A DNA stretch of 64,000 nt from Halorussus gelatinilyticus (GTDB lineage Archaea; Halobacteriota; Halobacteria; Halobacteriales; Haladaptataceae), in assembly GCF_023238445.1 (NCBI RefSeq), contig NZ_CP096658.1, positions 1,984,001-2,048,000 of the forward strand, read 5' to 3'. The notes beneath the pieces were generated by a model. That model was not told where the DNA came from and made no database searches. It saw only the letters and a list, made by a program, of their open reading frames with translations. This document shows, piece after piece, positions 9,234 through 48,363 of the stretch. The first letter of the stretch is position 1. Every line of letters starts with the position of its first letter. A program made the translations under genes and the position numbers.

Positions 9234-9718
9234 CTATCTAGTCCGAAGAACTAGCGTCAGCGCCTGCTCCGTGTCGTCGGTCGTCACGCGCACGTCGAAG
9301 GCGACCGCCAGCACGTGCGTCCCGCCCGCGCGCTCCTGCACGACGACGCCGCCGTCGGATTCGCACGCGCCGAACTGTCGGTTCGGTCCGCCCGGACAGT
9401 TCGCGTCGCGCCACGCCGCGGCCGCGGTCCGGTTGTACGCGACCTGATACACGGTTCCCGACTCGACGCGCGAGGACCGGAGCGCGTCGAGTCGCGGCCG
9501 GAGGTGGTCGCGCACTGCGGCCGCGGCCGCAGCGCGCTCGTCCCACGCGAACTCGCCGGTCGCCTCGCTCGTGGCGTCGTGGACCGCCCGCGAGAGGAGT
9601 CGCTCGGCGTTCCGGTCGGGCGCGTCGAACTCCGTGCTGGCGGTCACGTCGGCGTGGTAGCCCAGTTGCAGGTAGGCGACGACGACCGGCGCGAGCGCGA
9701 CAGTGATTGGAGATTTAT
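9234..9718 (-). pseudogene. 5'-truncated haloarchaeal pilin-like/secreted protein gene at the edge of inserted DNA
   Basis: The reverse strand encodes the body of a protein with a hydrophobic segment VALAPVVVAYLQLGYHADV followed by a soluble domain (with one Cys-Pro-Gly-Gly and a later Cys). The hydrophobic segment should be preceded by 15-25 residues with a start codon, as in haloarchaeal type IV pilin-like proteins. Here the frame runs straight into the stop codon of the unrelated upstream gene (about 9715-9717). A GTG at 9647 could start a fragment lacking the membrane segment. The intact 5' end is not found elsewhere in the window. The best reading is a gene cut by insertion or recombination. 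Confidence 0.65.
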
Positions 9719-46365: not shown

Positions 46366-46578
46366 CTATTTTTCAAGCTCTTCGCATGCTACTTCTCGCA
46401 ATTCATCCAAAAGATCCGGATGATGTTCCGCTAAAAGTTCGACATCCTCGGGGATTCGTTCACGAATCCGTCTCCGTACTCGTGAAATGGCTTGATATCG
46501 CTTTTCGTTTTCTACATCTTCTTTGCCAGAAATCCTCGCTGCTTCTGTATCCGTAATCAGTCCTCTTGACTTCGCCAT
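46366..46578 (-). CDS. Small charged protein of haloarchaeal plasmid type
   Basis: A 70-residue, highly charged helical protein starts MAKSRGLITDTEAARISGKE and continues RYQAISRVRRRIRERIPEDV, then an acidic end. Similar proteins are common on haloarchaeal plasmids and proviruses, but the function is unknown. The RVRRRI segment and helical character suggest nucleic-acid or protein binding. A palindromic operator lies about 70-90 bases upstream. Confidence 0.75.
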   Translation of the reverse strand: MAKSRGLITDTEAARISGKEDVENEKRYQAISRVRRRIRERIPEDVELLAEHHPDLLDELREVACEELEK

Positions 46579-46644: not shown

Positions 46645-46669
46645 CGCAATGGTTGCGAATATTCGCAAC
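46645..46669. promoter_or_regulatory. 18-bp perfect palindrome with an extra half-site, probable operator
   Basis: GTTGCGAATATTCGCAAC at 46652-46669 is a perfect palindrome. A third half-site CGCAA lies at 46645-46649, so CGCAA/TTGCG occurs three times at close spacing. A TATA-like TTATATA (46634-46640) adjoins it. It lies between divergent genes at 46578 (minus) and 46770 (plus), as expected for a repressor operator. Confidence 0.55.
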
Positions 46670-46702
46670 TATTAAGCGCGGTGCATTCTATTATCTAGAT
46701 AA

Positions 46703-46770
46703 GAAGCACGGCATGCCGGCAAAACTAGGCCGGTGCTGGAGACACCAACCGTGCTTCGGGACACGAAGCA
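46703..46770 (+). ncRNA. Structured leader with two mutually exclusive hairpins
   Basis: GAAGCACGG (46703-46711) pairs with CCGTGCTTC (46749-46757) over 9 bp and encloses smaller hairpins (CCGG/CCGG and GGTG/CACC). TGCTTCG (46752-46758) pairs with CGAAGCA (46764-46770) over 7 bp with a GGACA loop. The two stems share bases 46752-46757, so only one can form at a time. The second ends on the A of the start codon at 46770. This is the layout of a translational switch. Function is inference. Confidence 0.4.
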
Positions 46771-46979
46771 TGTCAACAAATACTACCGCAAGTCCTGAAT
46801 TTTGCGACGAATCGCCGCTAACTACCACTTCTCTTTCGAGAGAAATCACAGGCCCTCTCACGGGCTATGACGGCAATGGGGATGCCGAGTACTCGTTCTA
46901 CTGCTATGAGGCGTGTGGCCGGGAATCTGCCAACGGCGCAAGAGACATCCTGCACATCACGTACTGCTTCGGGAACTAA
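46770..46979 (+). CDS. Cysteine-containing microprotein of plasmid type
   Basis: This 69-residue protein starts MSTNTTASPEFCDESPLTTT and has GYDGNGDAEYSFYCYEACGR near the C-terminal half, followed by a final Cys. Related haloarchaeal proteins show C-x2-C zinc ribbons; here the spacing is C-x3-C. The start is chosen because a strong hairpin ends there and no better ATG follows. The gene may be near the edge of decay. Confidence 0.5.
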   Translation: MSTNTTASPEFCDESPLTTTSLSREITGPLTGYDGNGDAEYSFYCYEACGRESANGARDILHITYCFGN

Positions 46980-47000
46980 CCACCGTTCTCACTATACTCT

Positions 47001-47354
47001 ATGTCTGAACGTACTAACGAGACGGCGGTGAACTAGGTGCCCGAAGGACTGCAGGTCGGCGAGCAACAATGATGTGATTGGTGTTGTAGCTGTGGCCGGC
47101 AATTACAGGGCGGCCATGCAGTAACTGCGTTCGCCTCGAAACCTGCGGGCGAGATACCATGGATGGTCACGCGCGTGTACTGCAGGATGTGCGAGCAAAC
47201 CGAAATTGTGACATCCACACTTGGTACGAGAGAAGTGTTGGTGTCGACGTGTTTGGTGCTCACGCACTTACCTGCCCGCCAGACAACTCGGCTCGTCCTT
47301 TTGGAGGATGAACTGTACACCCAAAGCGCACTGAGCGACGTGAACAGCCCTTAA
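47001..47354 (+). pseudogene. Cysteine-rich small protein gene with two in-frame stops
   Basis: A continuous frame from ATG 47001 to TAA 47354 is interrupted only by a TAG at 47034 and a TGA at 47070. It reads MSERTNETAVN-stop-VPEGLQVGEQQ-stop-CDWCCSCGRQLQGGHAVTA, then MVTRVYCRMCEQTEIVTSTL. The zinc-ribbon cysteines are preserved. Either the gene died recently, or a shorter protein starts at the GTG at 47037 or later. Neighbouring genes are clearly dead, so decay is more likely than recoding. Confidence 0.6.
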
Positions 47355-47507
47355 CGCCCTTCTCCTCTCAGAATCACACCCCCTCCACCAACAAACCTAC
47401 GAGAGCTACCCAACACCCAGTCAAACCCCGAATACCCAGCTACCACATCTACCGCAAGCCACTCACGGAAGCGCACACGACCAGCAACCGAGCGGGAAGA
47501 TAGCGAT

Positions 47508-48363
47508 GAACACACAACGTCGCGTACACTCGACGACTATTGAGGAACTCGCCTCTCACGTCCAGCAACTCACCGAGCGCCTCAATGACCTCGAAGCAGC
47601 ACTTGAAGAGAAACTAGCTAGATAGACACTCTCGAAGCTGACTTCCAAGAGGAACGTCAGAAACGCCAGGCAGTCGAAGTCCAATTCACCGAGGCTGAAG
47701 AGACACTCAATCAAATCGAGTTCAGGGGTGTTGACCACCCCGAAGAAGCGAACGCACCGAACCTGTTCATCGCAGGCATCCCAATCCGCCAGATGGTCGA
47801 AAGCCACGGCGACGCCATCGACCGCCTCGAACACCAACGTGACACCACCACGAAACCATCCAAAACAAGATTACGAGCGAGGAGAACACGCGCGTCAAGG
47901 AAGATAGTAAGATTCGGCGTCGTCTCTCACATGTCGAGGATGAAGTCGACATCACGCTACCAGAAGCTATTTAGACCGCGGCAGGCGGCGACACACGCCA
48001 TCTCTCGAAGCTCGAACGTTCATCCGGCATGGCCCAGAAGCCGTGACTGACGGCCGCGTGTATCCTGTCCACGAGCGTGCGCGCAAGATTGCGCTCAACC
48101 TCGCCGACTGGGGCACCAAGATTAATGACGCGTACGGCAAACGCGCTCGGTTGCGCTCGGTCAAGGATAACGTCAAAACGCATCTCGAGGCCGTGTTCGA
48201 TCGGTCATTCCAATGGGGTGAAATCTATCGTGCGATGGAGAAACTCGCTGACATCGCGGAAGGCAGCCAACTTCGCCTGCAGGTAGGCAACCGGGATGAA
48301 GGCAAGTATGTTCTTGAACTGCGATTCAATGACGGTCGTCCCACCATCACGGAGAACCGATGA
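47508..48363 (+). pseudogene. Frameshifted coiled-coil plasmid/virus-type gene
   Basis: Pieces in three frames join to one protein. It has a coiled-coil start (MNTQRRVHSTTIEELASHVQ, stop at 47627) and a second part (LEADFQEERQKRQAVEVQFT, IEFRGVDHPEEANAPNLFIA). A third part follows (SEENTRVKEDSKIRRRLSHV, with a further TAG), then a C-terminal part (VTDGRVYPVHERARKIALNL and on to 48363). At least three frameshifts and two stops are present. Similar proteins occur on haloarchaeal plasmids and proviruses. The last 110 codons remain open from about 48043 and might still be translated. Confidence 0.7.

Follow-up and report, generated by a model that had tools for sequence, protein, structure and literature searches.

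A putative repressor-operator and two-state RNA leader heading viral and mobile-element early genes in haloarchaea

Introduction

The closest described counterparts of the locus considered here come from the haloviruses phiH1 and phiCh1, for whose Rep repressor (phiH/phiCh1) operator binding has been described (PMC4284463); in the GenBank record of phiH1, the early lytic transcript T4 starts at the first G of the stem that we term P1 (L188:657). The phiH1 T4 and phiCh1 L-region leaders resemble a leader in Halorussus gelatinilyticus in that a divergent repressor gene and an operator region accompany an RNA core in which three helices, P1, P2 and P3, make up a three-way junction, one strand of which is able to pair forward. 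The viral leaders differ in that two extra strands separate the forward hairpin, P4, from the start codon and in that their repressor is winged-helix/MarR-like, the counterpart in H. gelatinilyticus belonging to the phrog_26393 family; the first phiH1 gene begins ~174 nt past the start site, unlike the arrangement studied here.

The H. gelatinilyticus leader lies in a stretch of 64,000 nucleotides (hereafter, the window), which is part of a 3.67 Mb haloarchaeal chromosome. A preliminary description had proposed that an 18-bp perfect palindrome with a third half-site, followed by two stems sharing bases, the second ending on a start codon, places transcriptional and translational control in front of a small protein. 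Here we report a comparative analysis of this leader and its homologues, which confirms, so far as sequence can, that a repressor site is followed by an RNA with two predicted folds, one of which would cover the start codon.

Results

Architecture of the leader

The features of the locus are collected in Table 1. P1 comprises nine base pairs, Watson-Crick throughout, and P4 (46750-46758/46764-46772) likewise has nine, including one G-U pair, with the entire ATG (46770-46772) inside the stem, such that the second stem does indeed end on the start codon. Both stems of the preliminary description are present, although it overlooked P2 and P3 within P1 and counted six shared bases where there are eight (46750-46757). 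Because of these eight bases, P1 and P4 are mutually exclusive. P2 is short in the window copy, in which an alternative GCCGGC/GCCGGU pairing is also possible.

Table 1. Predicted features of the leader locus, in window coordinates
Feature	Position	Strand	Basis
70-aa gene, phrog_26393 family, candidate cognate repressor	46366-46578	-	phrog_26393 E=6e-26; operator association
Third half-site CGCAA	46645-46649	.	Sequence
Perfect palindrome, 18 bp, GTTGCGAATATTCGCAAC, putative operator	46652-46669	.	Sequence; operator-family association
TATA-like box TATTAA	46670-46675	+	RNA-relative -31..-26; family profile peak -30..-26
Predicted transcription start	46699-46702	+	Promoter spacing (143 homologues); phiH1 T4 mapped start = P1 base 1
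P1 5' strand (a) GAAGCACGG	46703-46711	+	Pairing, homologue alignment
P2 hairpin, short in the window (GCC/GGC)	46715-46730	+	P2 covariation in homologues
P3 hairpin GGTG-CTGGAGA-CACC	46732-46746	+	Covarying in homologues
P1 3' strand (b) CCGTGCTTC, common to P4	46749-46757	+	Pairing, homologue alignment
P4 alternative hairpin CGTGCTTCG-GGACA-CGAAGCATG, holds start codon	46750-46772	+	Pairing, covariation, forced-state energies
69-aa Zn-finger-like protein	46770-46979	+	HMM built without the window protein, E=2.4e-8
+25..+37 motif within the ORF, partly conserved in the window	46794-46806	+	All-leader comparison

Taken singly, the window copy is moderately unusual (fold z = -2.3 over 341 nt), and a strict within-window search for three-strand layouts did not pick it out; the case for the leader therefore rests on its homologues. 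When either state is forced, the energy difference E(P1)-E(P4) across copies has a median of 0.1 kcal/mol (middle half -1.8 to +2.1, totals near -33), as computed with parameters for 37 C and 1 M NaCl for a cytoplasm that holds multi-molar KCl. This near-equality is partly built in, because strand c, the downstream half of P4, resembles strand a.

Two observations concern the loops. The first and last bases of the P3 loop (columns 67 and 72 of alignment A4) covary as C.A and U.G, wobbles of similar shape, which suggests an ordered hexaloop, perhaps a binding site. Shine-Dalgarno-like 4-mers occur in the P4 loop of 27 of 143 copies, compared with 10.5 in shuffles.

Distribution of the RNA family

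Leader DNA (46700-46789) matches many haloarchaeal genomes at ~73-82% identity, ahead of different ORFs. Searched at the DNA level with this leader, known phages gave no halovirus match, sequence identity being too low, and covariance models were needed. The window leader scores 71 bits with model R1, of which it is a training member. With the broader model R2, consisting of P1, P2 and P3, it scores 56.2 bits, compared with 42.1 for phiCh1 (E=2e-8) and 29.0 for phiH1 (E=3e-5), the window and phiCh1 being in the training set and phiH1 outside it; by the R2 score of its P1-P2-P3 core, the window leader is of the phiH1/phiCh1 T4 type.

R2 matched 272 of the 391 Halobacteria genomes scanned at E<=0.5 per genome, and >100 of its matches were better than 1e-5. 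At E<=0.05 it matched 11 of 24 genomes inside the class and none of ~124 that belong to other classes of the phylum. The leader occurs in the haloviruses phiH1, phiCh1, ChaoS9, Humcor1 and HRTV-DL1, as well as in plasmids and chromosomes. A degenerate pattern scan also located it in IMG/VR contigs, ChaoS9 among them; the genome-contig figure of that scan is ~49 of 120, a count of record titles in a collection of which haloarchaea are a small minority.

Rfam 15 (4227 families) had no match to the leader RNA in the window or at 12 related loci, and no description of it was found in a literature search, beyond the reach of which lay the phiH papers of 1992-1994. The phiH leader fold may, reportedly, already appear in the work of Stolt and Zillig (NAR, 1993) on a Halobacterium RNase. 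What appears to be new is the RNA family, together with its spread in haloarchaea and its coupling to viral operators; the mechanism class to which it belongs, alternative pairing that hides a start codon, is known.

The source genome carries a second leader (G000:C1:1449339-1449396; L002:1408-1465; E=0.008) ahead of a paralogous Zn-ribbon gene. It lies in the chromosome close to ORFs resembling, by eye, those of a replication-protein-A operon and represents the host counterpart of the viral leader. Some short elements, including those in Haloferax sp. Q22 (L184, 4439+ and 7224-), G112:C18 and L312, have two or three leaders, two of them facing each other across ~2-3 kb and differing in operator type.

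Conservation and covariation of the stems

In 49 leaders aligned blind to structure, pairing was retained in 99.3% of cells for P1 and 98.6% for P4, compared with 32-55% when the partner was slid by 1-3 columns. One P4 pair, 83/96, occurs as five pair types with 19 double changes and is the sole individually significant pair of this alignment (E<0.005, tree-aware null). P1, P2 and P3 base pairs make up six of the seven and seven of the eight best covarying column pairs in alignments of R2 matches, which were fitted to the model, such that these ranks are supporting rather than independent evidence; it is solely there that P1 is top-ranked. When the broad family was put to a tree-aware test in fixed, register-blind blocks, no signal emerged; shifting registers are the probable cause. 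Within P1-P3, G-U pairs outnumber A-C mismatches by 176 to 62, an excess that fits an RNA of the + strand.

In 169 of 182 non-identical copies, strand b can pair with a strand ending 0-3 nt ahead of the start codon (ATG in 166, GTG in 3), with the stem abutting the codon directly in 113. P4 is kept in 27 of the 34 distinct copies that lack GCTTC, among variants such as GGGUUC/GAACCC, UGGCUU/AAGCCA, GAGUUC/GAACUC and GCUUGG/CCAAGC; when b and the downstream half were swapped between copies, a mean of 8.6 and a maximum of 16 kept P4 (300 trials). HRTV-DL1 and Humcor1, records found via their divergent protein, have GCUGUC/GACAGC followed by AUG, and some leaders of Zn-finger gene homologues have wholly different P1 and P4 sequences around the same inner core. 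The preliminary description had named a covariation search as a check, and homologues without compensatory changes as evidence against its stems; in the event, pair 83/96 covaries significantly, P4 persists with new sequences and P1-P3 pairs are among the top covarying.

Promoter, operator and divergent gene

Relative to the RNA, 143 non-redundant copies have AA at -34/-33, a TATA peak at -30 to -26 and TA at -11/-10. From this conserved spacing, transcription is deduced to begin with the first bases of P1, ~46700 in the window, in agreement with the mapped start of phiH1 T4. A transcript beginning after 46711, which the preliminary description had named as evidence against its reading, is not what these data point to.

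The palindrome and the third half-site are present as first described, the former immediately 5' of the TATA-like box. The window holds two perfect 18-bp palindromes, compared with 0.27 expected; the other, CTGCGGCCGCGGCCGCAG, lies at 9515-9532. Perfect palindromes with arms of at least 6 occur in 19.6% of the regions upstream of leaders and in 4.2% of shuffles. A divergent ORF of at least 50 aa is present within 350 nt of 164 of 169 leader copies (mechanical ORF calls), and in the R2-independent virus records (phiH1, ChaoS9, Humcor1, HRTV-DL1) the leader adjoins a divergent regulator gene. A phrog_26393 member stands divergently upstream of 43 leaders, that in the window included, and a winged-helix protein at ~40. 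A GTT-n12-AA[CG] frame located -48 to -50 from the RNA, mostly at exactly -49, occurs at 19 of the 43 phrog_26393 loci and at none of the 40 winged-helix loci. The restriction of this frame to phrog_26393 loci in that comparison links the palindrome in the window with its divergent neighbor and, together with its fixed position, lends weight to its reading as an operator.

The divergent product, modeled by AlphaFold as four helices (pLDDT 89), would be predicted from this association to bind the palindrome as a repressor; a fold search with the model returned no PDB match and no recognizable DNA-binding fold. The layout, a divergent regulator gene with operators between it and the leader, is that of a viral repressor-operator immunity region. 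Four phrog_26393-positive records lack an adjacent R2 match, i.e. HJTV-4 (L325) and the plasmids L326, L327 and L328, of which L328 has a weak R1 match despite the absence of one to R2.

Genes behind the leader

The first genes behind the leaders fall into ~79 unrelated protein groups, including SWIM proteins and the Zn-finger family of the window 69-aa protein, which stands behind ~20 other leaders. Control of a microprotein, as first proposed, is in this respect too narrow a description: the control module is supported, but it is a widespread viral and mobile-element module rather than a microprotein-specific one. The 69-aa protein has no close relative in genome or viral contigs, with weak class matches only; as protein homology alone is uninformative, it is informative only through its leader. 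Upstream, its frame stays open as far as a TTG at 46653, such that gene callers could set the start ahead of the RNA. A reading of the leader as coding was rejected; the frame is open in 108 of 169 copies, plausibly since GC-rich sequence has few stops. In ChaoS9 (NC_054953), the annotated start of gp64 (L187:3581-4186) lies upstream of the RNA, such that the leader is read as coding, and the ATG behind P4 (L187:3680) is the better start.

A motif of approximate form GAARA-n-n-n-UANCG lies at a fixed distance from the start codon (+25 to +37) inside unrelated ORFs. Position +37 is G in 89%, and codon 13 encodes chiefly D, G, A, E or V, residues whose codons are all GNN. Its conservation looks like that of RNA rather than protein; neither clear covariation with the RNA core nor a pairing partner was found.

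Beyond the 69-aa gene, the region 47000-48000 has no convincing sizeable ORFs and looks like a decayed mobile element, flanked, as judged by eye, by glycosyltransferase- and epimerase-like genes; given this decayed look, the window copy may be an orphan.

Predicted folds of the phiH1 and phiCh1 leaders

At the free-energy minimum of the phiH1 and phiCh1 leaders, P1 is formed and c is paired to a further strand, d, with the start codon outside these stems; when b:c pairing is forced, a later stem reaches the AUG. The two extra strands thus appear to keep the same logic, in which formation of P1 leaves the start codon free.

Discussion

The overall results make it probable that the leader belongs to a module that precedes early genes of viruses and mobile elements, in which a repressor and operator are coupled to an RNA that switches translation ON or OFF. 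The proposed stacking of transcriptional and translational control is borne out by the position of the operator, the stems and their covariation; the switching itself we infer. In the proposed mechanism, the small divergent protein would turn the + transcript off by binding the palindrome, which overlaps the promoter at its upstream edge. Transcription from ~46700 would give an RNA beginning with P1, of which the P1-P2-P3 domain would fold first, during transcription, leaving the start codon free (ON). Strand c, just 5' of the start codon, copies a and could displace it from b, giving P4 and burying the AUG (OFF). Stabilization or weakening of the P1-P3 junction, on which a host-wide factor may act, would then set translation of the first gene. 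Repressor binding, the direction of the switch and the involvement of a host-wide factor at the junction are all steps that we infer from these patterns.

The nature of the trigger is less clear. The leader resembles a riboswitch in having a conserved, aptamer-like domain coupled to alternative pairing; the genes of one pathway typical of riboswitches were not found among the 79 unrelated downstream groups, and no ribosomal protein, as would mark a ribosomal-protein leader, was recognized among the listed downstream proteins. Since the downstream proteins are unrelated, a common signal should be host-wide, i.e. a metabolite, an ion or salt effect, or a host protein. We tentatively suggest, as a possibility rather than an expectation, that the leader is an unrecognized archaeal riboswitch or host-factor sensor by which viruses and mobile elements tie early translation, and with it lysis or persistence, to such a signal; the module would then work behind many different repressors and ahead of many different early genes. 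A variant differing in the trigger, in which the junction is bound by a protein, either the product of the gene or one of the host, seems somewhat unlikely. The ~20 leaders ahead of one Zn-finger family, and others ahead of SWIM proteins, are in its favor, but the ~79 unrelated groups behind the same core rule out the product as a shared ligand, which leaves a host protein as the possible one.

That the 5' structure serves mainly in transcript stability or processing, by nuclease protection or as a cleavage guide with P4 secondary, we regard as improbable. The location of P1 at the mapped phiH1 start and the work on structure-specific RNase action on phiH transcripts, as cited in PMC8707807, are consistent with such a role, which, however, leaves unexplained both the retention of P4 in the 27 divergent copies and its 0-3 nt adjacency to the start codon. 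Alternative hairpins are typical of transcription attenuators, but P4 as a terminator stem is very improbable, as a start codon and no U-run follows it in the same 169 copies. Least credible is a DNA-level element (a cruciform, replication origin or recombination site), which the presence of the leader in viruses and plasmids might suggest, but which does not account for a fixed promoter upstream, a start codon directly downstream and the G-U excess on the transcribed strand.

The switch reading, if correct, would be of consequence in several respects. A leader with two states, carried by ~70% of the haloarchaeal genomes sampled and by model haloviruses whose transcripts have been mapped, would add to the lysis/lysogeny decision of archaeal viruses an RNA layer open to direct testing, and would offer a natural salt-adapted switch for genetic tools.

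With respect to known systems, the leader shares with translational riboswitches, such as the fluoride riboswitch, a conserved multi-helix 5' domain and alternative pairing that would hide the start codon, and sequestration of the start region is likewise employed by synthetic theophylline switches in Haloferax (PMC8241225). It differs from translational riboswitches in being placed behind viral operators and in not being tied to one metabolic pathway. In lambda-type immunity regions, too, operators lie between a repressor gene and a divergent early operon; from these regions the haloarchaeal module is distinguished by its archaeal promoters and by the addition of a putative RNA switch in the early leader.
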